Positions 14,464 to 46,073 of a stretch of 64,000 nucleotides of DNA are shown piece after piece; position 1 is the stretch's first letter, and every line of letters begins with the position of its first letter. The translations under genes and the position numbers were made by a program. The notes beneath the pieces are model-generated. The model did no database searches, was not told where the DNA came from, and saw nothing but the letters and a program-made list of their open reading frames with translations. This DNA is from Panorpa germanica (taxonomy: Eukaryota; Arthropoda; Insecta; Mecoptera; Panorpidae): NCBI GenBank assembly GCA_963678705.1, contig OY783209.1, positions 16,740,001 through 16,804,000 of the forward strand. Reading direction: 5' to 3'.

Positions 14464-14464
14464 A

Positions 14465-16035: not shown

Positions 16036-16139
16036 GGCGTTTATTACTTAATTACTTGCTGATTCTGATTATTACTCTGGTGGTTCTTTTACTTAAAAAA
16101 AAGGTTCTTTGTTTTTATTCCGCTATTGCCATGTTTTTG

Positions 16140-16480: not shown

Positions 16481-16567
16481 ATCTCACAGTTGTTTTCACA
16501 TAGTAATTGCGTTGCGTTTGTTTCTTGATGTCTGATACTTGCATTATTTTTTATTTTATGCTCGTTT

Positions 16568-23888: not shown

Positions 23889-24390
23889 ATAGTTGCAGTA
23901 TGATTGTTAATAGCAGATTTGTAGATTTATTGCATCCACCTGCATTTTTTGTGCATTTTTCAATATCTTTAATTTCCTCTCTTGAAATATATATTTTTCC
24001 CAATAATTCGTTAATGAACGCCGATTTTTTTTCAATTTCAATCAGTCGCCTTTTTGCAGGTTTTAGTCGGTTAGGTGTTTGATCTGTAAATATGAATTGT
24101 ATAGAGTTATTTTATATTATTAATAACTTATTAATAATAATTAAATATTTACTGGCTTCTGAACCAAAATCATTATCCGTTTGTAGTCTTTTTATTTTTG
24201 TTGGATACTCTTCCTCTGTAAATATCAATTGTATAAAGCATATAGAATATTGATTTATTTAAATAATTAAAAATTTACCACTTTCTGAATAAAATATTTC
24301 TTTCTCCTTCTTCTCTCTTTTTTTCTCTTCCTTCCATCAACACTCTTATATACACTTTTCTTTAGATCTAAAAAATTTTGACTTGGTAAC
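23889..24390 (-). CDS. Possible small multi-exon gene, unrecognised
   Basis: Three minus-strand exons with plausible splice sites: about 24,390-24,282 (KEEKKREKKEKEIFYSESG, donor GTAAATTT), about 24,221-24,150 (EEEYPTKIKRLQTDNDFGS), and 24,085-23,889 (after TTTACAG: RLKPAKRRLIEIEKKS, EEIKDIEKCTKNAGGCNKST, ending in TAA). The product would be short, basic and charged, with a C-x8-C pair near its end. It may be the 3' part of a transposon accessory gene. No family is recognised and exon joining is inferred. Confidence 0.35.
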
Positions 24391-25030
24391 ATAAAAGATC
24401 CTATTTATTACAATTACGATCCACTTTAAAAAAACATATTTCGAATAATTACAAAATCTATTCAAAACCTAAAGAAATAAATTCTTTTTAGATCTTCGGC
24501 CTCAAAAATGTTACATATATGTAAAATGATCCATATTTTGTGTGTAATGGGTAAGCACCAAATATTTACAATTTATTTATTTGAATAAAATATATTAATA
24601 CTTTCATGTCAGATATATGATCTGAGAAAAGTTAACCAGTATGATCTCTTAAAAAATAATATAACAAAAAAAAATCTCTTTTTAATACAAATTTCACAAC
24701 GCACGATTATTTTTCGTCATGTTTACTACTAAGTAAGTCTGGATGACCTGTACTAAAAAAGTTGATACGTCGAGCAAAATAAAAGAATTTAATATTAAAT
24801 ATGAACTCTAAACCAGGGTAACCATATGCATTCACTTCGTAATTTAAGTCAGACGAAGTGCAGTGCTAAAATTTGTTAATCGTTTGTTTGTCTAAACAAA
24901 ATGTGCTGTTAAAACACACAATATTTTATATTATTTTGCTATTATGAAATCTTTTTATTATAATTCATAGAAAGTTTGAGAATTTCTGGTTTGCCATAAT
25001 GTGGAGCGCATTTATTTTTTAAGTAAATGG
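24391..25030. other. AT-rich spacer
   Basis: No gene seen. A short imperfect inverted repeat (cacttcg...cgaagtg) is at about 24,832-24,860. Confidence 0.45.
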
Positions 25031-25736
25031 TGTACGGTGTGTTGCCGTTGTTGCAGGGGTTGTGGTGGTTGAGGCGTCTGCAGGTGCTGCGTTGGATGTG
25101 GTAATTGCGCAGGGTGCACTTTCGGTGAATAATAAATTCGGTGGAAAATATTTTACTGAGCTTGTTGACAAAAGCATAAATCGCAGAATAAAACTAAAAG
25201 ATGCTGAAGACATAGAAAAAAATGCAAAAGTAATCCACCAAAATATAAGGGAAGCCCTGGAAAAAGCAAGTTCTATAAGACAGAAACAACCAGACAGTAT
25301 CAAGCAGTTAATTTTAAGAAAAAACAAGCGCAGGAAGATATGGCAAAATAAAAAAAACCAAAACATAGAAACCCTACTAAATGGATTACAATCTGCAACC
25401 AGGGAAAGAATACAAAAATAACAAATAAATGCATCGCACAATCTCGCTGTGGAAAAGTATGTAAGTGAATATCTAAGACTTCACGCCGCAGGACGATTCA
25501 AACTCACAACATCATGGGAAGTAAAAAAACAACATAAGAAAGCTAAAAACAAGCAAAATCGCTAAGAAAAAAACGTAATAAAAAAAGCGATAATAGCACT
25601 TACCAGACTGATTAATGCAATTTACAAATATGAACACTTCTTAGCCAAAGTAGTTATGATTCTGAAGCCAGGAAAAGCAAACAAAGACCCTACAAATTGC
25701 CGCCCAATAAGCTTACTTACTCATATTAGTAAGGTA
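25031..25736 (+). pseudogene. Jockey-type reverse transcriptase fragment
   Basis: Contains the region upstream of RT (KQLILRKNKRRKIWQNKKNQ) and then the start of RT (MILKPGKANKDPTNCRPISLL, THISK), as in Jockey-like ORF2. There is a stop at 25,420 and an internal deletion between the two parts near 25,600. It ends at about 25,736, just before DNA element A. ORF1, endonuclease and the rest of RT are absent. Confidence 0.7.
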
Positions 25737-25751
25737 AAAAGATCCCATACA

Positions 25752-26040
25752 GGATGAAACCATCGGCCCAGTCTTGGTACAGGCCTGGTTCAGTACTGTA
25801 AAGATCTGGGCCAAGTATGCACACCAGTCTTGGCCCAGCTTTGGGAATAGCCTGGAATGATAACATCGTGCCAGGCTTGGTTGTCAAGATTGGGCCAAGC
25901 TAGATCGTCAAGGCTGGGCCATGCTTGATTACCAGAGTTGGGCCAAACTTGATCACCAATACTAGGCCAATTTTGATCCCCAAGGCTAGGCCAAGCTTGA
26001 TCACCAATACTGGGCCAGATTTGTATACCAGTTTTGGATC
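25752..26040 (+). repeat. Left subterminal repeat array of element A
   Basis: About nine diverged ~30-bp units built on ttgggccaagcttgatcacc. They stand out by GC content from the AT-rich interior. The mirror-oriented array is at 28,705-29,050. Such arrays are typical transposase-binding regions. Confidence 0.75.
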
Positions 26041-26620
26041 AAAAAAATTTAATAAAAGCGTAAGCTAAATATAATTAGCGCATGCTTTAACACACAAATA
26101 ATTACATCCATATACTTAAATTAAATTTATTTAATTATTTAAATTATGAGATAACATTCATATGACATTAATTTTTAAAACATACTAAGATTTATATTTT
26201 AGTCGACATCTTTGTTTATAATAATATACCCAACATCACAAATATCATTATTAATTGTACTGATAAGAACCTAAGAACTAACAAGATCAAAATATATTTT
26301 TTTTAAAGTAATGCTTATTTATAATAATAGATGTGATTAGTAATATTTAATTAATAAATATTACTGTATCTAATAACGAGACAGGTACTCTAAAACTTGC
26401 TTTTCAACTAGCACTTTGTTATAGATATATATCACAAATATTATTACTGATCGTACTGATAAGAACTTAAAAACTAACAAGATCAAAATATATTTTTTAA
26501 CGTTATGCATAGTTAGAATAATAGATGTAATTATTAATATTTAATTAATAAATATTACTATATCTAATAACAAGGCCGGTACACTGAGATTTACTTCTCT
26601 ATCAACGCTTTTTTCCCATA

Positions 26621-27624
26621 CTATAAGGTAAAAGGCCCAGTTTCTGATAGTATATCATTTTGTAGGACATCTTTTCCTCGCTGTGCTCGTCCACCGTCCC
26701 TGTCGCCTGCACCAGATAAAAATTTACTGACGATAGTCAATATTTTTATTTTATCCTTTGCATCATGATATTTTGCCTGGATAAATTCTGAAAAAAATTA
26801 AATCGCAATCAGTAAATCACAATTACTTTTCAACTCGAATGTTGCAACTTACCTTCCATCAGTTTGTACGACTCAGTTTGATTGAAAGCTTTCTTACCAA
26901 CTCCTTTCATTATTCTTCCACATCCACTGTACTCTAATTGCACATTTTTTTTCAGCAGCTTTGTCATTACCGCTGAAATATCATCTTTATATTTCGTGTG
27001 TCCAGCAGCTACCATCTTGAATATCTCTTTCTACAAATATACGTGTATAATTAATTAACAAGTTATCAATAATCAATAACTAATGATGAATAGTAAACGT
27101 AATGCGTACCACGGCATCTTGTGTGTCTTCTTTTGTATTAAGATCTTCTTCAAACTTGAGAAAACCTTCAATACTGTCAAACGGTAAATCTTTACCTATT
27201 TCTTTCGAAGCTTGAGTTTTCTCTGGTAATTCCGCTTTGTATTCTACAGCTCGCAAAATCTTGTCGTACCTGTTCGATACCGTTAATAAAAGGCTTCGTT
27301 TCATTTTATCACATTCTCTTACCACGCATTTTTCAATGAATTTTGCGAGACCGTCATAGTCGGTTATCCCTAGAAATTGTACGATAACTATAATAGTTTT
27401 TCATTGCTATCACTGGAATCAAAATATTTATTATTACACACTGATGAACCACCTGGTTCTGGAATGTTATTAGAAACATTGTTTTTATTCACATCACTAT
27501 TAATAGTTTGATCACTAACATTTGGTTGAGTAATGTTTGGGTTGGTTAGTTTATTTGAAACTTTGCTTGTTTTGTGTAACGCGCGCCACTTTTTCAATCG
27601 AAAATACGAGTTAACATAAAACAT
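26621..27624 (-). CDS. DUF4806-type protein gene of element A
   Basis: Minus-strand exons: first exon within 27,624 to about 27,465 (FRLKKWRALHKTSKVSN, N-rich linker); exon 2 27,369-27,110 (DLPFDSIEGFLKFEEDLN); exon 3 27,030-26,853 (LLKKNVQLEYSGCGRIMKGV, KKAFNQTESYKLMEG); exon 4 26,787-26,621 (KFLSGAGDRDGGRAQRG, TAG stop). Donor and acceptor phases agree across exons 2-4 with no stop. The arrangement (phenylalanine-led 'FxSIEGFLKFE', then 'YSxxG...KKAF') is that of DUF4806, a domain of unknown function common in transposon-linked insect genes. The first exon donor is uncertain. The gene may still be functional. Confidence 0.65.
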
Positions 27625-27813
27625 TTAAATTATTTGTAATATATTAAATGACTAATATTAAATGTACAATAACAAATAAATAGAGAACATTTGACTGCTT
27701 CCACATAGACACTTGTATATAATATATATAATATATTAATTATATTAATTATTTTATAATATTTAATATTATTTTGTTAATGCTAAGATGCTTAAGCGCG
27801 TGTTGACTGCTTG

Positions 27814-28441
27814 AGGCCTGTCTCAGTATGGGACCGTATTTAAGCGACGGCGTATTCGGCAAACCAAAAACAAAGCAAACCGCCTATGTGTGTCACAGAT
27901 GTCTGTAGTCGTGTATTATGGGGTGTATTGGAGTTCTTTAGCACTTATATAATTTATCATGAGAGCACACTTTAATTTTAATTTTTATCGATACACTACT
28001 GGTATTAAAGAGACTTTGGCATTTATTATATATCTGAGTTCTGGTGGGCGTGAATTTAAATTTAGTTCTATCGTATTGGTATCGGTATCGGTGTTCATGA
28101 TTCACTGAAATACAAACATAAACTGCATGCAGAACATAGTGATGTCGCCGATAGATTTCATTTGAAGCGTATATCCCCTCCAGTCTGAGGCGGCTGTTTG
28201 CATTTACAAAGGTTCGGATAGGATATCGTTGTAGTAGTGGTAACGCTTGGATAAAATTCGCCTTTATACGGTTCTAATGTGCAAGGTAGTGCCGCCCGTA
28301 TTCGGACGGCTTTGTAGCGTGCAGTCTGAGAGCTCCAGAGAGATCTCATTACATTTACATGGTTCGGATAGGTAAAGCGTAGTAGCCCGTATACGTCCGG
28401 CAGAAATTCGTTTAAATACGGTGAAATACTGAGACAGGCCT
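27814..28441. mobile_element. 628-bp inverted-repeat element nested in element A
   Basis: Ends are AGGCCTGTCTCAGTAT (27,814) and its exact reverse complement (28,426-28,441). Similarity continues as ACCGTATTTAA-CGA, so the terminal inverted repeat is about 35 bp with mismatches. The interior has internal repeats (ggttcggatagg at about 28,210 and 28,363; cagtctgag at about 28,181 and 28,322) and no coding capacity. No clear target duplication is visible. Confidence 0.65.
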
Positions 28442-28704
28442 AAAACTAACATTAAAATAAGAAATAAAAGCAAGATATTTATATATAAGATATAACTATT
28501 GCATGCGTTTATGAACACCCTCTGTTGGTATAAATTCCTAGTTTAATGACTTCCTCTATTGGCGTTAATTCAAATATTATCAATGCTATGAAGCATTTGT
28601 TTACAACAAGATTATGAAATATTAATAAAAATTATTTTTAGAACAATTTTTTATTTATTGTGAGTAAATTTCTGTTTATGAATGAGCTTAATTACATAGT
28701 GTTA

Positions 28705-29050
28705 AGTTTCCTAGTGTTGGCCCAAAGCTGAGTGAATTAAGAGATGACCAAGACTCGATTTCCCAGTATTGGGCCAAGTCTAAATCACCAAAAAATGGCT
28801 TAGGCTTGGTTGACCGATTCTGGTTCAAAGCTGGGTCACCGTAGTATGGCTAGAGCTGAGATTGTCAGTGTTGGCCCAAAGTTGGGTGAGTTAAGAAATG
28901 GCCAAGACTTGATTTCCCAGTCGTGGCCCAAGATAGGGTGAACATAGGATTGGCCAAGCCTGAATTATCCAAATTTGGACCAATCTTGGCGCGCCGAAGT
29001 CTGGTTTGCCGTGACTGGGCCACGCTTGGCCCCGTTTTCGAACTACGGGG
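28705..29050 (-). repeat. Right subterminal repeat array of element A
   Basis: Repeats of gttggcccaaagctgggtga and ggccaagacttgatttccca. They carry the same ggccaa core as the left array but run in the opposite direction. Confidence 0.7.
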
Positions 29051-29065
29051 ACTCCTGTATGGGAT

Positions 29066-30323
29066 ATTCCTAGAACCTTTACAGAAATTTAATGTACTTA
29101 CTTCTAATCAAATAAATAATAAATCAGCCAGTAGAAAGGAAATTGTATCAAAAAATATTAGAACCTCTCATTTAAATTAAGAGGAAGAAGACTCATTAAT
29201 CTCATTATGTCAAGAATTTAATCAAGTATTCTACCTTGAAGGTGACATTTTAAGTCAAACAAACACTATAGCACATCAAATAAGAACTAACGATCATCCC
29301 CCTATTTATACAAAAACATATAGATATCCTGAAGTACACAAGAGTGAGGTAGATTCACAAATTAATAAAATGTTAGATCAACATATAATAAAACCCTCAG
29401 TATCACCATGGTCAAGTCCAGTTTGGGTCGTACCCAAAAAGGCGGACGCATCAGGTAAAAAGAAATGGCGAATAGTTATCGATTATCGAAAACTAAATGA
29501 CATTTCTGTAGGAGATGCATATCCCCTACCTAATATAACAGATATTTTAGATCAACTAGGACACTCTACTTATTTCACCACTCTTGATTTAGCACAAGGA
29601 TTTCATCAAATACCTATGAATAGCGAAGATTTGGATAAAACCGCATTTTCTGTTAATCAAGGTCTTTTTCAATTTAATAGAATGCCTTTTGGTTTAAAAG
29701 GGGCACCTGCCACCTTTCAGAGGCTAATGGATCGCGTTCTTACGGGTTTACAAGAACTTAAATGTTTTGTTTACCTAGATGACATAATTATTTATGCTAA
29801 TTCAATTGAAGATCATCATAATAAATTAAAACAAATATTTTTACGTTTAGACGAACATAATCTCAAACTCCAACCTGATAAGTGCGAATTTATGCGTACA
29901 GAGGTAGCTTATTTGGGTCACATAATTTCAGATAAAGGTGTAAAACCAAACGCTGATAAAATAACAGCAATAACCAATTACCCTGTCCCTCGCAATACAA
30001 AAGAAATAAAAGCATTTTTAGGTTTAATAGGTTACTACAGACGTTTTATTAAAAACTTCTCTAGATTATCACAACCTCTAACATATTTGTTAAAGAAAGA
30101 TGTTCCTTTTGAATTCAATGAAAAATGTACTAAATCATTCAATGAGTTAAGAACTAAATTAATCATAGAACCTCTGTTGAAATATCCAGATTTTAAAATA
30201 CCTTTTAACTTAACAACAGATGCTTCTAATTTTGCAATCGGTTTTATATTATCACAAGGTGATGCTAAAAATGATTTTTCTATAGCTTACGCATCTCGTA
30301 CCTTAAATAAGGCTGAACAAAAC
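29066..30323 (+). pseudogene. pol: Gypsy-2 reverse transcriptase and start of RNase H
   Basis: Reads from a region before RT (IAHQIRTNDHPPIYTKTYRY) through RT: WVVPKKADASGKKKWRIVID, LDLAQGFHQIPM, FNRMPFGLKGAPATFQRLMD, and the catalytic YLDDIIIY at about 29,770-29,793. It continues into the RNase H-like connection (LTTDASNFAIGFILSQGD, IAYASRTLNKAEQNY). This part is free of stops from about 29,190 to 30,325, where element B begins. A TAA at about 29,178 lies upstream of RT. The enzyme would copy the element RNA. Confidence 0.9.
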
Positions 30324-30339
30324 TACCCTTACAAAAATT

Positions 30340-30785
30340 GAGGAGCGGCCCATTAATGGGCCAATACTGGCGGCCGATCTCCGAGCATTGGCCAAACATC
30401 TGAATATATGCTTGTGCCAAGACTGGGCGAGCAACGGATGTTAACGCCATGCCAATGTTGGCGACTGAGCATCGGCCGAGCATTGTCACCGAGCGTCGGC
30501 CGAGCATAGTCGCCGAACATCGGCCGAAGCTTAGTCGCCAACCTTGGCATGGCGTTAGCATCCGTTACTCGCCCAGTCTTGGCCCAAGGATATATTTAGA
30601 TTCTTGGCCAATTCTCGGGGATCGACCACCAGTCTTGGCCCATCAATAGACCGCTCTTCATTTTTTATATGGGTGAGACGATGATCCTGAGCATCAGAGT
30701 TTGCCAGGCATTGGCCAAGCCTATTAAGTATCGCCAAAGCATCGTGGCCGAGTGCTGACCAAGCGTTGTCCCAGTCCGAAATACC
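30340..30785. repeat. Left subterminal region of element B with a ~65-bp inverted repeat
   Basis: Repeated gcattggcca, catcggccga and cttggccc motifs. Segments 30,412-30,480 and 30,520-30,587 are imperfect reverse complements (gccaagactgggcgag, then caacggatgttaacgccatgcc, against the same sequence inverted), forming a potential cruciform. Similar motifs occur at the right end (34,632-34,790: ccaaggaatggctgatgatc, gcttggccaagcatc). Confidence 0.7.
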
Positions 30786-31057
30786 TGATTTTTTTTTTTT
30801 ATTCATCTACACCCTATTGGAAAGGTTTCTTCCCTTAAGGGAAATTTCTTCTTCATCCCTGTTTCCACAATTCCTAACAAACTAATTTAAAATCAGTTTA
30901 TTTATTTATTAATGACGTTCGATAAATTTAAACATTTTTTAAATACTATGAAATTATTATATTTATGTATTAAACTAAGAATGAAACATGAAATAATAGT
31001 GATAATATTATATATATTATATATAGAAACAATAGTTATAATAACAATAATTTGTAT

Positions 31058-31525
31058 TTGATTGCAATTTCCAGTTCGCCTTGCGTTCGCAATGACAATT
31101 AACAAGTCGCAAGGCCAATCGCTTAGTGTTTGCGGGATAAATTTAGAAAATCATTGTTTTTCACATGGGCAGTTATACGTTGCTTGTTCACGAGTTGGGA
31201 AACCATCCGCTTTGTTTGTGTTAACGTCAGACCAAAAACAAAAAATGTGGTTTACCAAAGAGCACTTCAATGAAACGGATAATTTGCGGACACGTATAAC
31301 GCTTCGATTCAGTATTTACTTTGGATTCACTTTCATTTACTGAGAGAAGTTTAACTAAATAACACTAATCGAAATGAATTCATTACTGTTGTAAAATGAA
31401 ATAAAATTTTTCCTTTTCAAATATAAAACAAAAAAAATATTTTTCTTCATCTTTTAATCACCAAACGAAATGTTACATAAAACGAAGCCATCTGATGGCG
31501 AAACGGAGTTCGCCGGGTTTGCTAG
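31058..31525 (+). mobile_element. Helitron 3' fragment inside element B
   Basis: Codes the last ~85 residues of a PIF1-type Helitron helicase (QFPVRLAFAMTINKSQGQSL, VACSRVGKPSALFVLTSD). It ends in a canonical Helitron 3' terminus: a 6-bp hairpin stem (ggcgaa...ttcgcc) at 31,497-31,514, then gggtttgctag ending CTAG at 31,525 before T. The family differs from the complete Helitron at 40,895-46,521. Its 5' part is missing. Confidence 0.8.
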
Positions 31526-31553
31526 TGTTTTATATAAGTAATTTTTTTTATTT

Positions 31554-33147
31554 TTAATTACGTCGTCTCCGACCACCTTCTCTATCACCCGCATTGGCTA
31601 GAAAAGTTCCGATTTTGCATATAAAACTTTTGCATTGTTCAGAGTCCCCAAATTCTTCTTGGATGATATCTGAAATTAAAAATATTTATTATAAATACAT
31701 ATATTTTAATAAATTGATAGCATTCATAAATATTACTAACCTTCTAAACATTTAAAGGTATTTGTCACACTAAAATTCAGTTTACCCACGCCACGTACAA
31801 GTCTACCAGTGCCTGAATAGAGTTGTTGTACGAGCGGGGTAAATACTTCAGACAGCGTTTTCCTTATGCAAACACTTACATCAGTTTCACCATAAGTAAT
31901 TACTTTGAACAAATCTTTTAATTGATTATTATTGGCAGGAGTTGTTAGTCCAGCATCAAACACTGTAAAACGGTCGAGGTCATTGATAGGAAATATACCG
32001 TTATAAACTTCCATCGCCGCAGTTAAAGTTTTGTTAGGAACACTGCTAGTCGATTGATTCATGGTGATTTGAGTTTTTATATTTTTTGCTTCCTTTTTAA
32101 TGTCGTATTCAAGACTATGTTTTATAGTGTCTAATTTTTTAAAAACCTCGTCGAATTTAGAGTCAATATATTTCTTCAATAGATCTGAAACAGTACCAGA
32201 TAGTAAAATATCTGTATGTACTATGACTAACTAATAAATAAATATTGTTTTGTGTCAAAAATAATCATCAATGGTAAAAAATAGTCACATTTGATTCAAT
32301 TTACTGAAATGAAAACGACAAACTTACCATAAGTTTCTTCGTTGAAACCGGTAGTTTTTCAGCTACTGTAGTGTGAATATCTTAAGCAAAAAAGACATAA
32401 AAAAATGAAATTATTTGATTAATTTTAATATTTTTAGAATTAATTTTTAATCATTTTCACGTTCACTACACGTTTAACTTTGAATTTTAATAATTTTTAT
32501 ACGGCTTATCTGATCAAATCTTATTTATTGACTAATTTCTATACTTCGTATTGTTTTTATTTAAGACAAAGGTCGTTATCGTATACAAATAAAGTCTTAT
32601 GTAAATTAAGTTAATAAATAATAATATACTTCGCTAAATATTAAGAAAATAATTTGCGAAAAATTACATGGCTTGACCACGTCCAATATTTTTTTCAAAT
32701 TATTTTCTTAATATTTAGCGAAGTATATTATTATTTATTAACTTAATTTACATAAGACTTTATTTGTATATGACATCGACCTTTATCTTAAATAAAAATA
32801 ATACGAAGTATACAAATTATTCAATAAATAAGATTTGATCAGATAAGCCGTATAAAAATTATTTTAATTATAAAATAAAATATTTTTAGTAATAATTATG
32901 ATTAATATACCTTTAGCTTTTGATGATTTCTCAGATCTAACCTTTGTGGTTGAATTACTACTTTGTTGAGCAATAGATGACATTGAACTCATTGAACTCA
33001 TTGACCTCACATCACTTAATTCATGATTTATAGCATCATTTGAAAGTTGGACAATATTTTGAGGGCTTGAAGGACCTGCATTGTCCGTGTCGACTTGTAA
33101 AGTGACTTCTGCGCGTCCCAAATGCCGCTTTCTTTGTTCTAATGTAC
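31554..33147 (-). CDS. DUF4806-type protein gene of element B
   Basis: Minus-strand exons: 33,147-32,911 (QRKRHLGRAEVTLQ, a serine-rich SMSSMSSMSS stretch, KVRSEKSSKAK); 32,380-32,328 (HTTVAEKLPVSTKKLM); 32,184-31,741 (KKYIDSKFDEVFKKLDTIKH coil, then the DUF4806-like FPINDLDRFTVFDAGL ... LYSGTGRLVRGVGKLNF); 31,669-31,554 (GTFLANAGDREGGRRRRN, TAA). The last two exons join in phase. The phase between the first three as drawn does not fit, so a splice site is misplaced or the gene is broken. The C-terminal AGDR-GGR motif is shared with the element A gene. Confidence 0.55.
32490..32867. repeat. Near-perfect ~375-bp hairpin palindrome
   Basis: The left arm (about 32,490-32,664) and right arm (about 32,685-32,867) are reverse complements with few differences. 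Examples are atacggcttatctgatcaaa against tttgatcagataagccgtat, and aatatacttcgctaaatatt in both arms. The loop is only ~20 bp. It sits in an intron of the element B gene. It looks like a fold-back MITE or a hairpin-RNA source. Confidence 0.8.
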
Positions 33148-33265
33148 CTGAGAATGAATTTTCTATATTATATAATGTGAGATGATATGGATTAAAGCAG
33201 ATGGTCCTGGAAGACAGTCCCCACAAATGGTTGCAATGAAAGTAAAACAAAAAAGAATAATTCAT

Positions 33266-34051
33266 AATGAAAACTTATTCTTATTTTTTAATTAAAATTT
33301 TTACGATTAAAAGAAATATTTTAAGTACAGATAAAGTTATCAGTTCAGTGATAATTAAAAAAAAAAAAATTAATTATTTACAACTTACTTGTGCTGGAGA
33401 TAATTTCGACTTGATTCGACACAACTGCGTATTGAGTTGGCCCATCGTCTTCAGAATGATTTAGGCTCATCTAATATTAAAGAAATTAATTTTAATCAAT
33501 ACAATGAAATTAATAGTAATATATGAACATGAATCAATAATTTTTTCATTAGAACAAATGTATCAATAAAATATGTAATAAAAAAATCAATCACGGAAAC
33601 CGGTATTTGAGAAAAAGTTTAATAAATCGATGGAAATAAATAAGTAATATATAAATTACACTTAAGACATGCAAAGTAATTGCTTATTCACTCAAAAAAA
33701 TATTAATGTAAATGTGTCAAATACAAAATAATTAATAAATGATAATTATAAAGGAATAAAATTGAAAAAGAATTTTTTAATTCTACAAAATAAAAAATTT
33801 CTGCGACATTCACACACAAAATTTTTGATAATTAAAAAAAAAATATTGAAATATTGCAATTAATTACTTCGAAATTAATTATGATAGAGAAAAATACTTA
33901 CGTTGTATTCAGTTTTACATTCAAAATTTTGAGGTTATGTGTTATTGCATGAAATGCGCTCACAAAACGTTTATTTGTTTGAAGAAAACACGAGGGAATT
34001 CACGTCTCGACACACTGACACCGTATCTCAAAATGAGTCTGTATGGTATAC
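33266..34051. other. AT-rich region upstream of the element B gene
   Basis: Non-coding. It probably contains the promoter and 5' untranslated exons of the DUF4806 gene, but no site can be pinned down. Confidence 0.4.
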
Positions 34052-34099
34052 ACAGTCGGCCTTTGTCATGACAAAGGCCGACTGTTGGATGCATCCAAC
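34052..34099. repeat. Two adjacent perfect palindromes (34 bp and 16 bp)
   Basis: 34,052-34,085 is a perfect palindrome centred on gtca/tgac (acagtcggcctttgtca and its complement). 34,084-34,099, gttggatgcatccaac, is another. They lie in element B upstream of its gene and could be binding sites or a small fold-back insertion. Confidence 0.85.
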
Positions 34100-34801
34100 T
34101 GCTGTTATGTATATACGCACACCGCTGCATTGTGTTTGCTATACTGCTATACTATCACGTATATACATATACACGTAATACACCAACGCTGCAATTTTTT
34201 TAAAATCTATAATTAATATATATTATGACACACATACACATAATAAATATATACAGATATACGCGACACAAGTTTTTAATTTTTGTGGTATTTCAACAAA
34301 CGTTTTTATTTATAAAAATAAATACGAAAACGAAATTTATTGAAAGTAAATACTAATAATAATTTTTTTACACTTAATATAATATTAATTGTTTTACACT
34401 TAAAAATTTGATTATATCATTCATGTAGTAAAGACATAGCACATAATTTATTATCATAATCAAATAATACGTATTTATTTTTTATAAGTTCTGCTGATTG
34501 TATCTCACTAGATTCAGAAAAACACTGGTAATGAAAACAATAAATTTATTACTTATTGCTAGTGCAAAAAGGTTATGGAACAACTAACGTCATATTTAGT
34601 GCGCAGGCGTTCTAGAAAATTTATCACATCATCGGCCAAGGAATGGCTGATGATCGCATGTCAATATTATAGGCATAGTACGGCGTCGATGGTTTACCAA
34701 CCCTCGGCCGTTACAAAGCACCGATGCTTGGCCAAGCATCAGCAGCCATACCTTGGCCGATCAATGGTTTTTTTTTTAGCATCGGCGACTTCGTATGGGT
34801 A

Positions 34802-35246
34802 TAGTACTACGGAAAGAGAATTACTTGCTATTGTATGGAGTGTTAATCACTTTAGACCCTACCTATATGGCCGTAAATTTTATGTATTTACCGACCATAA
34901 ACCATTACAATGGTTATTTAATGTCAAAAATCCAAGTTCCAGACTAGCTAGATGGAAACTAAAATTACTAGATTATGACATGGAAATAAAGTATAAATCA
35001 GGTATAACTAATACAAATGCAGACGCTTTGTCCCGCATAAATACCGAATTAAATGCAAACATGCTATTAACAGAACAAGAGATTGAAGATATCTTAAATG
35101 AAGAAGATACTCTTTTATCACCTAATGCAAAAAAAGATCTTAGAGATATTTTATTAAAGAAAGACAATCCTTTAACCCCTGATATCATTCAGGAAATTAA
35201 AAATGAATTACCTAACACATTGTTAGATTCACCTGAGTTACCTTAA
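34802..35246 (+). pseudogene. pol: Gypsy-2 RNase H, continuation after element B
   Basis: Resumes with STTERELLAIVWSVNHFRPY, then YVFTDHKPLQWLFNVKNPSS, RLARWKLKLLDYDMEIKY and NTNADALSRI, the standard gypsy RNase H order. An acidic linker follows (QEIEDILNEEDTLL) before a TAA at 35,244-35,246. A further in-frame stretch continues to about 35,385, and the next domain is in the +1 frame. Confidence 0.85.
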
Positions 35247-35349
35247 CCCGAGGAAAACCCTTCTGGAAGTTTACCTAATGTAGCTAATCCCCCAGAAATG
35301 CGTAATTTAATTAAAATCATACCTGAAGAAAAGAATTATAAAAACTTCA

Positions 35350-35812
35350 TGGTACGTTATAATCATAACTCTTATAGATTTTAATGCAAATAATATAGTG
35401 GTAACAAAAGAAAACCTCTTTAAAATCAATGATAACCTTGCACATTGTGTTTCCAAAGACATGGAAATGTCCGCAGGTTTAGCTTTAGATATGAAACATA
35501 AAATTTCCAATTATAATGATCTAAAAGCTCTAGATTCAGAATTGTACGGAGTAACTACCTCCCAATTCAATGGTAAAGAAATTTATCACTTAATAACCAA
35601 CCAGTTTTACTGGCAAAAACCTTCTCACGAAGATCTATTTAAAACATTATTGAACTTTCAAATATTATTAAATCTAGACGATTGCGAATCTCTTAGAATA
35701 CCTCAACTAGGTTGTGGTTTAGATAAATTACATTGGTTTAAAGTAAAGTCAATGATATATTATATATTTGCTAACACAAAATTAAAAATCACTATTTGTT
35801 CAAATGAATTAA
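35350..35812 (+). pseudogene. Macro domain (TARG1/OARD1-like) embedded in Gypsy-2 Pol
   Basis: About 150 residues between RNase H and integrase. They read NLAHCVSKDMEMSAGLALDM, GKEIYHLITNQFYWQKPS and IPQLGCGLDKLHWFKVKSMI, followed by a beta-strand-like KLKITI. This follows the TARG1/OARD1 macro domain order (LAHC.S.D..M.AGIA, IYYLITK....KP, .P.IGCGLD.L.W). The family binds ADP-ribose and removes it from acidic residues. The catalytic Asp of GCGLD is kept, whereas the position of the catalytic Lys (ITK in human TARG1) reads Asn. The domain is open and in frame with integrase to 36,240. A 1-nt frame change near 35,350 separates it from RNase H. Confidence 0.8.
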
Positions 35813-36870
35813 TTAATCCTACACCTGAACAAATTTTACAGATTCTCAAAGAATATCACGATACCCTACAATCGGGACACCCTGGTATTTATGGAATGTT
35901 GGAAAAGCTTAAAATGTTCTATATGTGGAAAACCATGAGAAAGGATGTAGAAAATTATGTAAAAAGTTGTATACATTGTCAAACTAAAATTAGTAGACAA
36001 CCTGAAAAGGCTCCTTTGGAAATAACTACAACTAGTAGAAAACCTTTCGAACGGTTAGCAGTAGACCTAGTCGGTCCATATAGAAATTTTAACCCAATTA
36101 CAGATAACAAATATATATTGACAATGAAAGACGATCTTACTAAATATTCTGTAGCTATTTCTATTAAAGATAAAACAGCTATAAGTGTCGCCAATGGTCT
36201 TATAAATAATTTTATTTTAATTTACGTAATACCTGAATCATAACTTACAGATCAAGGTACCGAATTCAATAATGATTTAATTAAACAATTATGTAAAATG
36301 TTAAAAGTAAAACATCTTAAAACTACTGTATATCATCCAGAAACGAACGGAGCATTAGAAAGAATGCACGCTTTGTTATCTGATTTTCTTAAAACAAATT
36401 GTTATGAAAATTCTAAAGATTGGGAAAAATTAATCCCTTATTTTACCTTCTCTTATAATACAACACCCCATTTAGCTACTAAGAGTACACCTTACGAGTT
36501 AATCTTTGGGAAAACTGCAAGTATACCTACCTCAGTCTATAGGGATACCCATATAGATTCTTACCCTATATACTTAGCAGAAATTAAAACTACCCTTACA
36601 GAAATGCAAAGGACAGCTCGTGAACAACTAATGAAACAAAAACAATCTTACGTTGACAAACAAAACAAGAAAAAACAGACTCATAAAAAACAATACGAAA
36701 TAGAAGACTATATATATTTAATCAAATATAATACTAACAAACTAGATCCTAAATATACAGGTCCTTTTAAAGTAATTGAAATAATTTCCCCTGTAAATAT
36801 AAAGATACAAATGAATAAAAAGCAAATCATAGTACATATTAATAACACAAAAAAAGCAACCAATAAATAA
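35813..36870 (+). pseudogene. pol: Gypsy-2 integrase
   Basis: Starts with the HHCC zinc region (EYHDTLQSGHPGIYG, then CIHCQTK), then the DDE core: LAVDLVGPY, LTDQGTEFNND and HPETNGALERMHALL with the catalytic Glu. It continues to the C-terminal LDPKYTGPFKVIEII and INNTKKA region and a TAA at 36,868. One in-frame TAA at 36,241, before the second Asp motif, disrupts it. Otherwise the reading frame is unbroken and shared with the macro domain. Confidence 0.88.
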
Positions 36871-36881
36871 ATTTGTTGCAG

Positions 36882-38753
36882 GTTAATCCCGTTATTCATC
36901 TCATCAGTCATTTGCCGCCAACAAGAAAATTCTTATTCTATTCAGGAAATAAAGAAATCCCCAGGACTATACTACGAAGAAGAAGCAAATCTTTATTTTT
37001 TCGACTCCTCGTGGAAATTAGTAGTTCATTATGATTTAACTACTCTTGACGAAAGACTGACTGCAATACACAAATATGTAGAGAAAATGATACCTATTTG
37101 TCCAAAACAAATCTTTCAATGTAGGAAAACTCTCGCTTATCTACAAAAACGTATTCCAATATTAAATGAGAAAACCAATACAATTTCACACCTTTTAGGT
37201 CATGAACGACCAAATCGTAGTCCTCTCAATTTTATTGGAACAATTTCTAAAACGTTATTCAGTACTTTAGATGCCGACGATGCTGAAAGATATAATAAAG
37301 CAATCGATCAAGTAGAAAATGACGAAAAGGAAATACTAAACCTATTGAATGTTCAAACTCAAGTAGTACAAGATACTATTACAAATTTTAATCATTCAAC
37401 GGAATCTATTTTAGCCACAGAACGTTTATTTAACAAAAATTTAATTAAAATACAGAATTTTATCAATTCCACAGAAAATGAAGTACGTAATCGTTCTCAA
37501 CTCTTTTTAATAGACACTAACATACAGCTATTAAGTAACTATATCGAAGATTATCAATCCGATGAAGAAACCATAGTAGATTGTATTCTATTTTCATTAC
37601 AAGGAATAATACATCCAAGTATTATTTCACCCCAAAACATACTAAGAGAATTATTACGGACTGTCGCACATTTACCCAAAGGTTTAAATTATCCAACACC
37701 TTTAAACATAGATGAAATTTACAAATTACAAAAAACTTTAGACTTAATTTCCTATTACATGGATAATAAATTAATCTATATACTATCCGTTCCTTTAATT
37801 AAAAATAAAAAATTCACTTTATATCACACGATTCCTTTACCTATTAAAAGTAAAAACCACTTCCTTTTCATACAACCTAGTCAATCGAAACTTGCGATTT
37901 CTGAAACACGGAATCACTACGCATTGTTAGAAAATGTCGAAGATCGCAAACATATTGACGTAGAACAACTAATATGTAAACGAAATGTAGTTATTCTCAG
38001 CACCCATAACAAACCTATATGTAAAGTTACCTTATTAATTAATAAGAAAATTGAAAATTGTAAAACTTACATCAATACTAAATCAATAAACATTTGGTAT
38101 AAATTGTATAAACCAAATGCATGGTTATACATATTATCCGAACCTATAGTGATGTAACTTTAAATTGTAAAAATGAAAATTTAAAAGATTTTAAACTTCA
38201 AAATACCGGAATACTTACATTAAATAAAGAATGTCACGGTTACACAAATCAAATTACTTTAACTACAGCCAAAGATATTGAAATAAATTATAACGCAGTC
38301 ATACCCAGCATTGAAATCACGACAGATGAATGTTGTCACGAAGACAATTTATATAATTCAATTAAAATTCCATCATTAGAACCACTACAAGAGATAGATA
38401 CAAATTTAGAAAACCTTAACATACTATCACAAAGAATTTACACGGTTAAAGATAAAATACATGAAATTTATAATTCACATAACATACATAAATCCGTAAA
38501 CTGGATCACCTATTTTATATATATACTAATAACAATTGTTGTACTAATAATCATGTATAAATTAATTATCTATATATATTTCATGTTCATAAGCAAATCA
38601 GCAAATAGGCCAGGGAATTATTACTTCTTCTGGGCTAAGAAAAATAACAATCCAACACTAGATAGTGGAGACGACTTACCTGAAGCGGAAGAACCACTAA
38701 ATACGGTGTCACAATCTCACCCTAGACCTTCAATCAGGAGAGACATCTTCTAG
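36882..38753 (+). pseudogene. env: Gypsy-2 envelope glycoprotein, frameshifted
   Basis: Begins after a splice acceptor (tttgttgcag, 36,881), as expected for spliced env RNA of errantiviruses. A short hydrophobic leader (LIPLFISSVIC) follows. The ectodomain contains a fusion-peptide-like segment (FIGTISKTLFSTLDADDAER) around 37,235, a helical region, several Cys residues, and a transmembrane segment at about 38,505-38,590 (YFIYILITIVVLIIMYKLII). The basic cleavage site seen in Gypsy-1 is not intact here (HERPNRS). A single frameshift between about 38,121 and 38,157 breaks the frame. The stop is at 38,751. Confidence 0.8.
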
Positions 38754-38783
38754 AAAGCAATTTCTACCACCTTGCTTTCTCTT

Positions 38784-39130
38784 AAGGAGGGAGGTGTTAT
38801 GACGACACGTATCAATATAATTGATAGTATTTAAATAATAAATGAATTGTCTTATGAACACGTACAATTTTTATAACTTTAAAACAATAAAGCTATTATA
38901 TTTTTATTATCACATTGTCTAGAACTAACCCATATTTCTAGGTATTATGAACATGTATTACTAATTATAGAATAACAAATAATATATAAGCTTAATATTT
39001 TTATTGTAATAGTTAGTTAATAATTAGACTCTGACTCTGTCAGTTACAATCACTAAAATCAATTTTAAACTTAAATATCATATTATCCAATAAAGAATTA
39101 ATCAGTTTGTACAAGTTGTGTTTTTTTTTA
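38784..39130 (+). repeat. Gypsy-2 polypurine tract and 3' LTR
   Basis: The tract aaggagggagg (38,784-38,794) is followed by TGTTATGACGACACG, the LTR start at 38,795. A caataaag signal lies at about 39,090. The LTR ends near ttgtacaagttgtg and a T run at about 39,130. There is no second copy in the window, so the exact end and the target duplication cannot be checked. Confidence 0.7.
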
Positions 39131-41147
39131 AATCTCTGTTATTACCTGACGTATTCTTTTGAGTTGCACCATTCAAACTGTCGAATATCTGGTCGCACAG
39201 CAGCAAAAATTCTCCGGTATCTTCAGTTTCTTTCTTTAAAGTAGCATCCTTTAATTCTAAAACGTAATAATTTATTTATTTAAATAAGATTTAAACGTTA
39301 GTTTTAATAATGTACAATATACAGTTATGTTTACCAGAAGCTGTTTTAATTAAGTGCAACCCTTTGGCTTAAGACCTGGACTGCATATTTCACTTTCATC
39401 TTCGGAACAAGCTTTTGTTCTTTATAAGGCGCTTTGATATATGGCCTGGAATGGTTCTTCTTTCTGCAATTTCTTCTAAGTCTTTATCAAATGCCACTTC
39501 GATTGACTTCCAGGAGGCTCTTTCTTTTCGTTTGTCAGGAAGGGCAAAGGTATAACTTCCTCCGTTTAACAATCCGTTTCTTAAGGTTTTTATTATATGA
39601 GGCACATCATATATAGGCACGATTGGACCTTTGGCCAGATCAAATGTATTATCTAATAAAATTATAAAAGATGTTATTACATAATACTTAATAATATATT
39701 TTAAACTCACAATTTATAACCTCTCTGATTAATATTTTTCTTCCTGCTTTCTACTATAAGCTCTGTAATAGCAGAGCTGTTGGCGACGTGCTGGTCACAT
39801 ACAGTTGCAACAACTTCAAATCCTTTAAGCATAATAAAGAAATAGCTACTACTCCAGTTTATAAGTTACATCAATGATAAAATGATATGATCTATTAGTA
39901 AATATATACTAACCAGTTTTCATGATTGCTGCAACTACTTTCTTAATACAGTTTTTTAAAAGAGGCGTTGTGATGGAATTTGTATAATAAAAGCAGACTG
40001 GCTGCTTCCAATTTAACTTCAAGCTTCTTAACATAAAGACTAGCACATGTCTTGCGAATTTCACATCCTGGTAATTATTCTCCATGATTTCAAACCCTCT
40101 AAAACACCCGTTGGTTTCATGCCAGTCGACGTGTGGTTGATTAGTCATTTCATCCCACATAAATAAACATGCTCGATCACTAAGGTTTAAATTCTCGGCT
40201 TGATTCTTAAGGTGTTCCATTATACTGCTTCATTTATTCCTAGGAATAAATCAAAATTAGCTAATTTTTATGACACATTAATTTAGACATATTTATTAAA
40301 ATTTTATTTATTTCTACTACCAGGAAAAATTGGAATATTTGCAAGTTCACGATTCAAAGTTAGTATACTGGGCATTTGAGACGCGTTTTTAAGAAGTCTG
40401 TATGCTTTGGCACTACTTTGATATATTGAGAGAGCCAGATATTTTTTATCCTTTGTATACCGCATTGCTTGGGGACGCTGGCCTCTAGTCCTTATCTGGC
40501 ACTTGAAGAATGTTTTCTGCTCTCCTGAAAGCAATTTAAAAGCATTACTATTGTAAAACTTGGTAGTTAGTTGACTATCTTTAACCCTCACACATTTATG
40601 ATACTCTTCTCGTTTTTTGGAGTCGCAATTCTCTTCGTAGGGTCATTATCTCTTCCATTACTGCCAATTTTCCCCTTTTCCCCTATTACTAGCAGGAGCC
40701 AATTTTCTGCTTTTTAGTAAATTCTGTTGAAAACTGATATTTTCAGATACTTCCTCTATCACTGCTGGCACTTGTTCAGATAGAAATTCTATGTCTTCGC
40801 ATGTTTTTCTAATAGACAATGTATCGTAGTCCACATTCACTATGAAATTAGAATATAAATTATATATTTAATAGATAGGGATATATATTTGATACTAGCT
40901 GACCCGGCAGACTTCGTACTGCCTCATCGATAAATAAAAGACCTAATCTTTTGTATAAAATGATTTTAAAACAAACAAAATAATTATTAATGAAAAAGCA
41001 TTTATTGAATAAAGCATGAAGTTTTATTATTATTTTCGATACATCATGTTGCTTACTTAGAAATCAGAGTTTTCCTGAAATACTGGCTATTTATAAGGTT
41101 TAAATTTGATATTCACAGACACACACTGTGAAAATACAGTCTGTTAA

Positions 41148-44100
41148 TTAATTTAAAGCTTTCTCATAAACTATATTTTTTGTTTTGTTTTGTGGTGCGT
41201 AAATAAACAAAGAAGACGGTTTTCCGACGCGCGAACACGCGACGTATAATTGTCCATGCGCGAAACAGGGAAACTCCAAGTTGATTCCACAAACTTCTAA
41301 AGACTGTCCTTGCGATTTATTTATGGTCATCGCAAAGGCCAGACGTACTGGAAATTGTAAGCGTTTAAAATCGAATGGTAAGTCCGTTGGAATCATCGGT
41401 ATCCGCGGGATCAAGACATCCTCTCCTTTGTATTTTCCTTTTATGATTGTCGCCTCAATGACGTTATTCATCAGTCTTTTCACAGCCAGTCTTGTTCCAT
41501 TGCATAGTCGAGGTTGATTAATGTTACGCAGCATGATGACAACTGATCCTACTTTTAACTGCAAATTGTGAGGTGGTAATCCAGGCAATTCCAGTGAATT
41601 TAAAAACTCAGTGGGATAGTTGATTACGTCATCCTGGTTCATTACGGTGTCGACTGATTTGAAGGAAACCAACTGTCCTGGAAGAAAATTCTGAATGGTC
41701 GCATTAAGATCCTCTACATCATTATTTTTCGCTGCTAATATTGCTCGTTCACCCAGCCAATTATGGTTATTGAACTTTTGCGCTATATCTGGGAAAACTC
41801 GCTGAATAAGCTCCACTTTTGAGTCTGTGATGTGACAGAAATCTGTAGGTAATGTGATGAATCCGGTCGAGGTGTCCACTGCAACTTTATTATTTCCAAT
41901 GTCTAACAACTGCTTCGCAAACACATTAGCAGTTTCATCTTGTTGCAAAAATACTCGCATGTTAGTTGTTAAGTGGAGTGTCTTTACGTACTGCCACAAA
42001 TTTGATGATTTTAGGCATGCATTTAGTTCATCAGCAACAGTTGATCGGGGAATAACTGGAAGAGTCTGACGAAAATCACCTGACAACAGAATCATGGCCC
42101 CACCGAAAATATTTTGGTTGTCACGAAGATCTTTCAACGTTCTGTCCAGTGCCTCCAGTGACCTCTTATGGGCCATTGTGCATTCATCCCAAACAATTAA
42201 TTTGCATACCTGTAGGATCTTGGCCATTGCGCTATTTTTGGCGATGTTGCAAATTGGTGTTTCGGTGATTTGCATGTTTAGTGGTAATTTCAAGGCAGAA
42301 TGTGCAGTTCGCCCGCCTTCGAGCAGAGTTGCAGCTATTCCAGATGAAGCCAACGCTAGAGCAACATCATTTCGCGATCTGATCCTCGCCAAAAGCAATG
42401 AAATTAAAAACGTTTTTCCGGTTCCTCCGGGAGCATCAAGGAAATAAATTCCACCAGATCCACTGTTCACAGCTTCTATCAAAGTGTCGTACGCAATTCT
42501 TTGTTGTTGATTTAATTGTGGAACATTTGTACGAACTGTTTCGGCCAATGCTTCAATGTCGTACTGATGTTCTCTTTGCAACTCGTGGTTTAATGCATCG
42601 TGCATATGACGATTGGGTGCTGTCATTCCCAAACACGACAATACTTTATTTGCCATCAATAAACACATATCTTCTATCATGATCAATGTGTCATTGTAAA
42701 TTTCTTCAGTCATTTGTAGTGTAGGATTCAAAGTTTGACGGCGCACACGATACAAAACATCCTCAGACATGTCATCTCTATACTTAACCCACAAATCTTT
42801 TGGATTCGAGGGGAAACATGTCGATATGATAATCGCAAACAATGTACGAATTTGATGCGGCGACGAAGATATTACGGAATCCTTGAGCGTATCATCCCAG
42901 TGCGAATCGTTCTCAAGTAAATGTAATAGTTGACATGCCTCACGGTAAGTCGCACACAGCTGTCCATTAACTGTTCTCAGTTGTTTAAACGATGTCGGAC
43001 CACGAACATTCACCAACAACAACCGCAAATAATAACATTCATCGTTATTTGGATGTACTGTGTAGATGCGACCCAAAGCATCTGAAGCAAATACATTTGT
43101 ATGTCCTTCAACTGGTGTTCCTTGTTTTCGACGCTGAAACGATTTCGATGATGCGTTCCATGTGTAATAGCGTGGCATGTCAGCATACAGCAAAGTGCGA
43201 GCAAAATCATCAGTTTGACAAACTGTGAAGAAACTTGTTAATGTTGTCGACGGTGGATGTGCCGCCCTGTCTGCCGCGTTAGATTCATTAAAATAAACTC
43301 GTTGACCATTTTCTAAATGGACTGCCAAATGGACTACTGTAGGGTGTCTTTCATGGATCGCAAATGAAAAGATACGCCAAATAGCTTCGTTGCTACTTAC
43401 ATAGCGACCCATCTGGTACTGTGATATTTCATCATTTGCATTGGTTACACCGAAGACAGCCATATCACTACCTTTATTAACATATTTACATATGTACTTT
43501 ATCGACTTCACAGAATTACAATATTCCACATTGATGTGAGTCTCAAAAGCTTTGGACAATATTGGCGAGTATGGCACAATCCAACGATTGTCTACATCAA
43601 CATTTTGTCCTCTTACCTTCACAACTACCGATCGCCCACTGTCCGCAACTGATCGCCGACGATACAATGGGTATCCATCATTTCCCGTTATGGTTTCAGC
43701 AAGCAGGTGTCTTGGGTATCGTTTGGAACACCTACCGTCGACCATACAGGGTGAATTGTAGTTAAAATGTCCGCAAGGTCCATGTATCATGTGTTTGGTT
43801 ACTACTGCATGCAATTTTGGGTCAACTATTTCATCTGGAATTTCAGCTGAAATTATAGAATCAATCTCATCTGGCCTTATTTTGTCCACTAACCAGACTA
43901 AAATGTGCGCATGTGGCAATCCACGCTTTTGCCATTCTACAGAGTACATCCAACAACGGACTCGGCCATACACACAATGCTTTATTAAAAAATTCATGAG
44001 AGATTTTAATTTTTGTTTAAAAACTCTGGCAGTTATGTCATGTCTATCAACTGGTGTTTGGCTATGTAGTAATTCCTTCTCGATTTCGGACCATTTTGGG

Positions 44101-45737
44101 TTACATGTGAATGTAACAAATAAATCTGGGCGGCCATAATGCCTAACATATGACATAGCATCCTGAGCATATTCATGCATGTGACGTGGGCTTCCTATAT
44201 AAGTAGCTGGCAAAATTGTCATTCTTCCTACATTATTCACATTGCCATCAGCATTTATAGCATCGCGGAGATGGATGTATTCCTCTGACCGTAGCCGTCG
44301 TTGGTTCAAACGGATGTATGTCAATCGTTCAGTCTCAATTTTGACATACATGTCAACTGCAAACTGATGAAAAAGTCGTTGACACATTAAAATATGATTT
44401 ACTTCACCTTGACGGATCATGAGTCTGTATGAATAGAAATTCATAGCACTAACTTTTTTGTTGGTTTCAGCACCTGCGATCAAAAATGATAAATGTTTAA
44501 ATTGTTACTTAGATGTATTGAATTTAAAAATATTATTTAATCTTGTTCAATTCATTTACCTGTTACTTGATTTACCATTTTGATATTAAAATGGTATCCA
44601 TCTTCCCCTTGCCAGAAGATCAAAGGATATTGTAGTGCATCATAACTCCTGTGTGTTTCAGATACACGTTTTAACTCACTATTCCGACGATGAAGCACAA
44701 TATCTCTAGATTGTAAATTTTCGCCCACAATGACAACAGCCACTTCATCAATGGTAGGTGAATTGAACCTCCTTGTTTGTTCACCGGCAGGTGTTTTGTC
44801 AGCTCGAATAATAATATTATGGCTATCAGATGGCATCCGATCCAATGCTATTTTGAACATGTTTACTAAATTGTTATTCTGATGAAGAAATATTTGTAAT
44901 TGTTGGACAATGGTTCTCTTCACTGTTGGATTGTGAGCACAACGATTATTAATTTCCGCATCTGAATTGCCCATAAAATAAATTTGTAAAAATTGATGAT
45001 CTGCATCAGTTAGTGGTAACAGAGTTCCCAGTAAGTGATAAATTTGTCCTTGAATCTGTAATTTTTAAAAATTTGTCCATTAATAATTTCCGATATATAT
45101 ATTTTAGTACAAACTTGAATAATACAAAAAAAAAATTCTTATATAATACCTTGAAAGTGGGCATGAAATTGTCTTGAATAATATGTGTAGCACCGAATGA
45201 TGTCATCTGGAAACAGTTGTTATATTTCTGAATGTTGGTCAAGAAGTGCTTAGAATCATTTCCAATCCCAGAAACCAAAGAGCGTAAAGGATCTGGTGGT
45301 GGGACCAATTGTGGCAATTTTACTTTGCCCTCAGCACAACATAATCCAGTAGATTCACCAGTGTATTTTAACGCCTTACAATTTTTACAAATTGTTTTCA
45401 TTTCCCCAATTGTTACCGATTTGTCGGCACAATAATCAATTGCCGGATCATAGTGGAATGCAGCTCGTTCAAGAATCACAGGAGCACTGCGTCTGCGGAT
45501 TCGCTCAATTTCATTATGTCTAGCTTGCTGTTGTTGTGTTTGATGTGCACGAACTCGTTGCATTCTAAGCCTATCTCCTACATTGTCACTCACCAAAGAA
45601 CGCAATTCTGACATAGCAATACGACTATTTTCTTGATCTGTCTGTCTCTGGTCATCAGTGCGGTTAGCACGTGAGGTAGCTCTTCGCACATTTGATTGAC
45701 TACGACGACCTAAGTTAGGTCGTCTTCTCCTCGGCAT
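41148..45737 (-). CDS. Helitron Rep-helicase transposase, three exons, open throughout
   Basis: Exon 1 45,737-45,150, exon 2 45,055-44,560, exon 3 44,473-41,148; both introns are ~90 bp with GT...AG ends and consistent phase. The joined length is 4,410 nt, 1,469 codons plus stop, with no internal stop. Features: basic N-terminus, zinc finger (ICKNCKALKY...LCC, about residues 115-140), Helitron N-domain (FKIQGQIYH across the first splice), Rep/HUH nuclease (FVTFTCNPKW about 480, LPHAHILVWL about 548, YICKYVNKG about 687), and PIF1 helicase (DAPGGTGKTF about 1,040, IVWDECTMAH, LSGDFRQTLPVI, KSQGQSLEVCGINL, VACSRVGKPS). It nicks and unwinds DNA for rolling-circle transposition. The length is typical of animal Helitron proteins. 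Confidence 0.9.
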
Positions 45738-46073
45738 CGTAAATTGTAATTAATCAAAGTGAGAAAATTTCCCGCTCATTTAGCAGTAAAGTGTCACTAT
45801 CACAAAAAAGAACACATTACTTGGAATGTCACTATCACAAAGGATCACCAAAGTAAAGAAAGTTCTCGCGCACGTAGCCACAAAGATAGATATAACGATA
45901 ATATAATTTTTTCCGTGCTCTGAAATGCGACAGGATGGAATGACATATCAGTTGGTTGTCAAATCTAATGTCAAATACATATTGAGATTGCGTTCAAAAT
46001 TTAACTTAAGATTTATAATTTAATTTGTCTTTATTATTATTGATTTATCTTTCGATTTCTATATAGTCTTATT

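Follow-up and report, generated by a model that had tools for sequence, protein, structure and literature searches.

Does the Pol protein of a gypsy/errantivirus-like retroelement carry, between its RNase H and its integrase, a macro domain of the type found in the adenosine diphosphate (ADP)-ribose hydrolase TARG1, and is this domain a regular part of the element or a private insertion? The question is raised by positions 35,350 to 36,870 of a stretch of 64,000 nucleotides, called the window here, from the genome of Panorpa germanica (assembly GCA_963678705.1, contig OY783209.1, positions 16,740,001 to 16,804,000), for which an original prediction made from the sequence alone had proposed such a captured domain. 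The macro domain between RNase H and integrase belongs to an element family, termed family A, all seven copies of which carry it, and five further families of this genome have a macro domain, too. That the domain is of the TARG1 type and belongs to element families can be regarded as virtually certain.

The identity of the window domain was analyzed by phmmer against the PDB sequences. Residues 28–163 of its open reading frame (ORF) match human TARG1/OARD1 (4j5q, 9.8e-20; 4j5r, 1.2e-19). Eleven rows were obtained, five from TARG1, five from the integrase of prototype foamy virus (PFV) and one from Ty3. The PFV and Ty3 rows align chiefly over the integrase part of the ORF, and TARG1 is the best sequence match across the entire macro domain. 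The predicted fold is a macro fold nearest to TARG1, as the original prediction would have it, and the three motifs quoted there are present in the ORF. A chance resemblance to TARG1 is ruled out by the phmmer matches and the fold comparison. Of the sequence checks suggested, the one with the PDB sequences thus recovered the domain, while the Pfam Macro profile gave weak values below its curated cut-off, 0.033 for the ORF and 0.009 for a 150-amino-acid piece, so that a Pfam scan would have missed it. In the window copy, the catalytic Lys84 of TARG1 is replaced by Asn, and the GCGLD loop is retained, including the acidic residue 125. This residue is printed as Glu125 in the consulted part of a review (PMC7050489); the solved TARG1 sequences have Asp in GCGLD, and the sequence was followed here.

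The window copy is a defective, broken element. Its order of reverse transcriptase (RT), RNase H and HHCC-DDE integrase is that of a gypsy/errantivirus-like Pol, and a baculovirus F-like envelope, as expected for such an element, follows (Table 1). One ORF encodes both the macro domain and the beginning of the integrase, as had been claimed, and the zinc domain begins a few residues past the macro domain. A TAA stop codon falls within the integrase core, which resumes in the same frame beyond it. The claimed location between RNase H and integrase holds for the position of the domain; in this copy, the RNase H is in another reading frame and therefore not continuous with the macro-integrase ORF, and the integrase has the internal stop. 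Furthermore, about 4.4 kb of other DNA (30350–34722) splits the RNase H in two. In or bordering this interruption, two hairpins were found, with arms at 32473–32664/32688–32879 (92%) and 30325–30479/30520–30674 (86%). No direct repeat pair resembling long terminal repeats (LTRs) was found to flank the broken and interrupted copy within positions 24000–44000, where direct pairs of at least 60 bases occur only within 24083–24289, 26235–26614, and 28697–28932.

The genome (464 Mb, 249 contigs) was searched with the 150-amino-acid macro piece, and 150 of 544 candidates were scored. All 150 matched, with E-values from 2.8e-99 to 6e-7, and 50 of them lie in open frames of at least 1000 amino acids by hand count; a few of the matches are two pieces of a single copy. 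An independent search was performed with a 137-amino-acid integrase piece, in which 150 of 1329 candidates were scored, relatives first. It retrieved seven family A copies with 80–100% identity on several contigs, and the macro domain is present in each, so that the segment is a property of the family. L004 holds RNase H, macro domain, and the zinc domain and core of the integrase in a single open frame of 1337 amino acids. The other 143 integrase matches show 37% identity, lie within one bit of each other, are mostly found in frames of 1652 amino acids and, judging by these sequences, look like one recent, abundant family (F). A degenerate macro domain was present in all 23 of them that were fetched, 19 having an identical peptide. 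These 30 of 30 copies say nothing about gypsy elements at large, because the 150 scored candidates were ranked with relatives first.

The grouping into six families is our own and is based on identities and flanks, with Pfam domain calls on one locus per family (Table 1). The integrases of families A and D share an identity of 0.31. The macro domain abuts the zinc domain in A and F with a spacer of few residues. In family B, an integrase match in frame with the macro piece occurs only in L016, the RNase H of which is in another frame; for L009, the 271 amino acids following the macro piece gave no integrase match with Pfam. In family E, the macro domain lies between protease and RT, since the protease is found upstream and the RT downstream of it; this order was pieced together from one copy. 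The TARG1 matches of the macro domains are 9e-44 in family D, 1.4e-37 in family E, and 2.4e-14 for the degenerate domain of family F. With Pfam Macro, a genome search yielded 8 candidates, of which L001 and L002 matched; the element domains were not reported by it. L001 and L002 resemble exons of macro genes of the host, which we take to be GDAP2-like. The identity of the domain, the fold of the window domain, its position, its multi-copy spread and the residue pattern described below are established.

Table 1. Features of the element copy in the window and composition of the six element families with a macro domain.
Feature	Position or loci	Strand	Description
RT and start of RNase H	29181..30341	+	ORF of 386 amino acids; RVT_1 2.8e-40, RT_RNaseH_2 3.4e-20; RNase H profile 30189-30350
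Remaining RNase H	34563..35246	+	ORF; RT_RNaseH 4.2e-22; profile match 34722-35015
Macro domain and first part of integrase	35311..36243	+	Single ORF of 310 amino acids; stops at internal TAA 36241-36243
TARG1/OARD1-type macro domain	35386..35811	+	ORF residue 97 is Asn at the TARG1 Lys84 position; GCGLD is residues 134-138
Integrase HHCC zinc domain	35824..35985	+	Integrase_H2C2 3.8e-20; ORF residues 172-225
Integrase zinc domain and catalytic core	35812..36579	+	Profile; one in-frame stop; C-terminal part of the same frame reaches 36870
Envelope (baculovirus F-like)	36871..38157	+	ORF; Baculo_F 8.5e-47
Probable envelope end	38112-38753	+	Further ORF, judged by eye
Family A	window; L003-L008, L011		RNase H, macro, zinc domain, core
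Family B	L009, L010, L016		RNase H, macro, about 280-290 amino acids, then weak integrase match
Family C	L012-L015, L017-L019, L043		As A, but about 143 amino acids between macro and zinc domain
Family D	L020-L032, L042, L044, L045		As A, but about 119 amino acids between macro and zinc domain; frames up to 1389 amino acids
Family E	L033-L038, L046-L051		Protease, macro, RT (RVT_1 3e-38), RNase H, integrase
Family F	L039-L041, L052, L065-L087		RNase H, degenerate macro, zinc domain, core

The pocket residues were tallied over 72 places, with 7 belonging to family A, 3 to B, 8 to C, 16 to D, 12 to E and 26 to F; L040 and L066 are one place, which is why the total is not 73. The TARG1 catalytic lysine is kept in 71 of the 72 places, the sole exception being the window copy. 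The loop is GCGLD in three of the seven A copies, the window included, and in all three B copies; the remaining A copies show GCGQN (three) or GCG-D (one), where frames are broken. In D it reads GCGHD (16 of 16) and in E ACGLD or ACGQD (12 of 12), in each case together with the lysine. Family C has EFDLD or VFDMD (8 of 8), and family F has ESELS or a similar string without Asp (26 of 26). The acidic Asp is accordingly retained in 4/7 (A), 3/3 (B), 8/8 (C), 16/16 (D), 12/12 (E) and 0/26 (F) places.

The ratio of nonsynonymous to synonymous substitution rates (dN/dS) was determined by the Nei-Gojobori method. For the macro piece it is 0.20 in family A (one pair, including L005, whose stop codon within the macro domain was skipped), 0.15–0.20 in C (three pairs) and 0.09–0.19 in F (three pairs), so that the changed forms of C and F are still under constraint. 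The one pair of family B has identical macro pieces. The RNase H and integrase pieces show values from 0 to 0.28 where defined.

Regarding the function, we infer the activity, target, and benefit of the domain. We hold with moderate confidence that the TARG1-type macro domain is a standing part of Pol, which would be a working eraser or binder in the conserved families and would have another role in family F. In the better copies of A, in B, in D, and probably in E, it would most likely be a working ADP-ribose hydrolase or binder beside or on the integrase, and an ADP-ribose activity in the conserved families seems probable. It would remove ADP-ribose placed by the host from the integrase, the element DNA ends or the chromatin where insertion takes place, either prior to integration or in its course; such a role against ADP-ribosylation is plausible, if somewhat short of probable. 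In family F and in proteins like P0004, found in other public data, the pocket has decayed, and the domain would be kept for another, probably structural, role ahead of the integrase. An eraser or reader is supported by a pocket that is conserved in B and D and for the most part in E, and by the location of the domain next to the integrase in five families. According to the consulted part of the review, TARG1 acts on proteins and on nucleic-acid ends (PMC7050489), and a mono-ADP-ribosylation by SIRT6 on KAP1 is described for retroelement silencing in the excerpt of a second paper (PMC4695847). Several points weigh against the eraser or binder, however. The window copy lacks the catalytic lysine, and C and F, i.e., 34 of the 72 places, lack the GCG loop, F additionally the acidic residue. 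Catalysis is dispensable in F, because this family makes up 143 of the 150 integrase matches despite these losses. The dN/dS of the macro piece is 0.20–0.68 in D, with few changes (five of six pairs, the sixth being undefined), and 0.36–2.78 in E (six pairs), so that E does not fall clearly under 1. Where a family has both pieces, the macro piece is in most cases under weaker constraint than RNase H, with the same trend relative to the integrase. Finally, the macro domain may or may not stay on the integrase after protease cleavage, and in family E it is placed between protease and RT. The protection from PARP-type modification that had been suggested was not borne out, C and F being without the usual catalytic loop.

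Alternatively, the domain could be a structural part, serving as a folded spacer or as an extension at the N-terminus of the integrase, for which ADP-ribose is irrelevant by now; the N-terminal extension domain (NED) of spumaviral integrases is a comparable extension. This is suggested by the macro domain nearly touching the zinc domain in A and F, by the location of the F domain mostly in the 1652-amino-acid frames, and by the loss of GCGLD in F, P0004, P0002, and P0005, in spite of the purifying selection acting on the F domain. As a general explanation it is rather unlikely, as a spacer needs no pocket, whereas the lysine is conserved with GCGHD in D, with ACG-x-D in E and with GCGLD in B; moreover, C and D have a long stretch between macro and zinc domain, and E houses the macro domain elsewhere in Pol. 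Chromodomains steer the integration of chromoviruses, and in a similar manner the domain could be a reader, binding ADP-ribosylated chromatin or DNA ends and steering integration. In five families it is located between RNase H and integrase, which would fit this, binding could survive the loss of the lysine seen in the window copy, and the ALC1-like class includes readers besides erasers, as stated in the consulted part of the review (PMC7050489). A pure reader is nevertheless quite improbable, since binding alone would not require the catalytic lysine, which is kept nearly throughout. That a fragment of a host gene was inserted by chance into one dead copy, or that the assembly is at fault, could be suspected from the window copy, which is broken at several points. 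The genome-wide macro and integrase searches refute this, with the domain in every family A copy and in five further families, many in long open frames, and other public data contain proteins with a macro domain followed by an integrase (P0001; P0004, with RNase H as well); what chance is left to it is negligible. The structural explanation suits F and P0004 better and the eraser B, D, and E, and both may hold in turn. In a wider scenario, which as a whole is doubtful, ADP-ribosylation would be a defence against retroelements here, and a Pol-borne, TARG1/DarG-like eraser would clear the integrase or the element's own DNA ends. The domain would have been taken up repeatedly or moved (between RNase H and integrase, between protease and RT, or elsewhere) and would later have become a dead part of the integration machinery in the abundant family.

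The original prediction assumed a capture from an insect host gene. This was not borne out, as the trees leave the number and the source of the captures undecided. Two trees were calculated with 134 and 43 macro rows and 142–143 columns; P0002, P0005, P0008, and P0076 were excluded as partial, P0003 has no macro match, and the 43-row tree used 16 of the 103 unnamed rows, with four second copies dropped. Families A, B, and C form one clade with P0001 and P0004 (support 100/99 and 100/98), and D and E group together (100/86 and 96/86); the larger tree alone places these two beside a fly OARD1-like protein and P0117 (93/84). In P0117 itself, a basic stretch which, by eye, resembles a bZIP region precedes the TARG1-type macro domain. 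Family F stands on a very long branch amid rows that are unresolved, the P0004 branch is also long, and bootstrap is unsettled here in both trees. The approximately unbiased (AU) tests rejected none of four groupings into one clade (p = 0.107, 0.162, 0.236, and 0.26; 0.26 for a single clade of all). One capture and several are therefore not separable with these columns.

Among the relatives, P0001 (513 amino acids) consists of macro domain, zinc domain, and core, and P0004 (615 amino acids) is a single protein with RNase H, a degenerate macro domain, and integrase. Because the P0004 model is useless (mean predicted local distance difference test, pLDDT, of 46), the fold of the degenerate form is judged by its sequence. 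P0006 (Exocentrus adspersus) has a macro domain followed by a retroviral protease, P0055 the C-terminal end of an integrase followed by a macro domain, and P0007 a PHD finger, a TARG1-type macro domain, and a GDSL esterase. The latter looks like the ORF1 of a non-LTR element with a captured macro domain, presumably of a CR1-like one. P0001, P0006, P0007, and P0055 have the lysine with GCGLD, and P0002, P0004, and P0005 the lysine with a changed loop. P0006, P0055, and P0007 thus carry this domain beside retroelement-type domains, yet in other orders, and from these layouts, together with P0001 and P0004, several retroelement types seem to be joined to TARG1-type domains in different orders. 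In five scans of viral contigs, no relative was found. A fold search of viral proteins (best 50 of 870 rows) started with a Kadipiro virus protein and RNA-virus polyproteins; none of these rows was named as an errantivirus, which excludes nothing as many are without a name. TARG1-like proteins with 26–37% identity to the window domain were found in 12 phage records (H1–H12), from Fusobacterium, Lactobacillus, Bacillus, and Lysinibacillus phages and one uncultured phage, some being duplicate records of one phage.

Compared with known systems, TARG1/OARD1 (C6orf130), an animal ALC1-like hydrolase, resembles the element domain over its full length by sequence and predicted fold, and its Lys84 and GCG-x-D are also kept in many element copies. 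However, TARG1 is a free-standing cell protein, while the element version is one domain of Pol with a changed loop in C and F. DarG, the antitoxin of the bacterial DarTG system, has 16–17% identity in the alignment. In DarG only the lysine is conserved, according to the consulted part of the review (PMC7050489); the copies with a lysine but without the rest of the motif recall it, as a resemblance only.

A TARG1-type domain inside a gypsy-type Pol was not found described among the matches listed for the open-licence PMC papers searched, which agrees with the original prediction, where no described retroelement of this layout was known. Macro-domain ORFs, however, have been reported for epsilon-like endogenous retroviruses of ray-finned fish (Basta et al. 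2009, cited in the consulted part of PMC4977317). These are likewise retroelements that acquired a macro-domain gene, but as an additional ORF and in vertebrate hosts, according to the same source. An N6-methyladenosine (m6A) demethylase-like ORF in orchid gypsy elements and the chromodomain as an extra domain of LTR elements are also mentioned in the available parts of PMC9289625 and PMC12440569. In the consulted text of PMC12992720 and of PMC12440569, words beginning with "macro" are absent. As in those LTR elements with a chromodomain, a demethylase-like ORF or a dUTPase, the added domain is fixed in the lineage here too, with a different domain and position. Some retroviruses carry a dUTPase, and chromoviruses a chromodomain. 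While captured domains in retroelements are already known, this domain, its positions in Pol, and its decay series appear new to us.

In addition, other elements were noticed in the window. At 12904–17284 on the reverse strand lie pieces of a second retroelement with envelope-like and gag-like ORFs (by eye). Its integrase profile match is located at 15397–16083, without a macro match there, and most of its pol looks lost, because there is little room between the integrase and the gag-like ORF. ORFs of copia-type appearance (by eye) are located at 5774–8081 on the forward strand, with an integrase profile match at 7050–7781. At 41148–45749 on the reverse strand, an ORF of 1118 amino acids and two shorter ones look by eye like a Helitron with a Pif1-type helicase. 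A short segment inside the 4.4-kb interruption (31062–31254) resembles the helicase ORF piece 41167–41360 (73%).

Macro domains are answers of RNA viruses to host ADP-ribosylation. The TARG1-type domain kept in the Pol of several families points to a pressure of ADP-ribosylation on the replication or integration of invertebrate retroelements, and the finding is open to a direct biochemical test on single domains. Within one genome, the series leads from a conserved pocket (B, D) over a changed loop (C) to a lost acidic residue (F). This way, an enzyme domain can be watched turning into a structural part.
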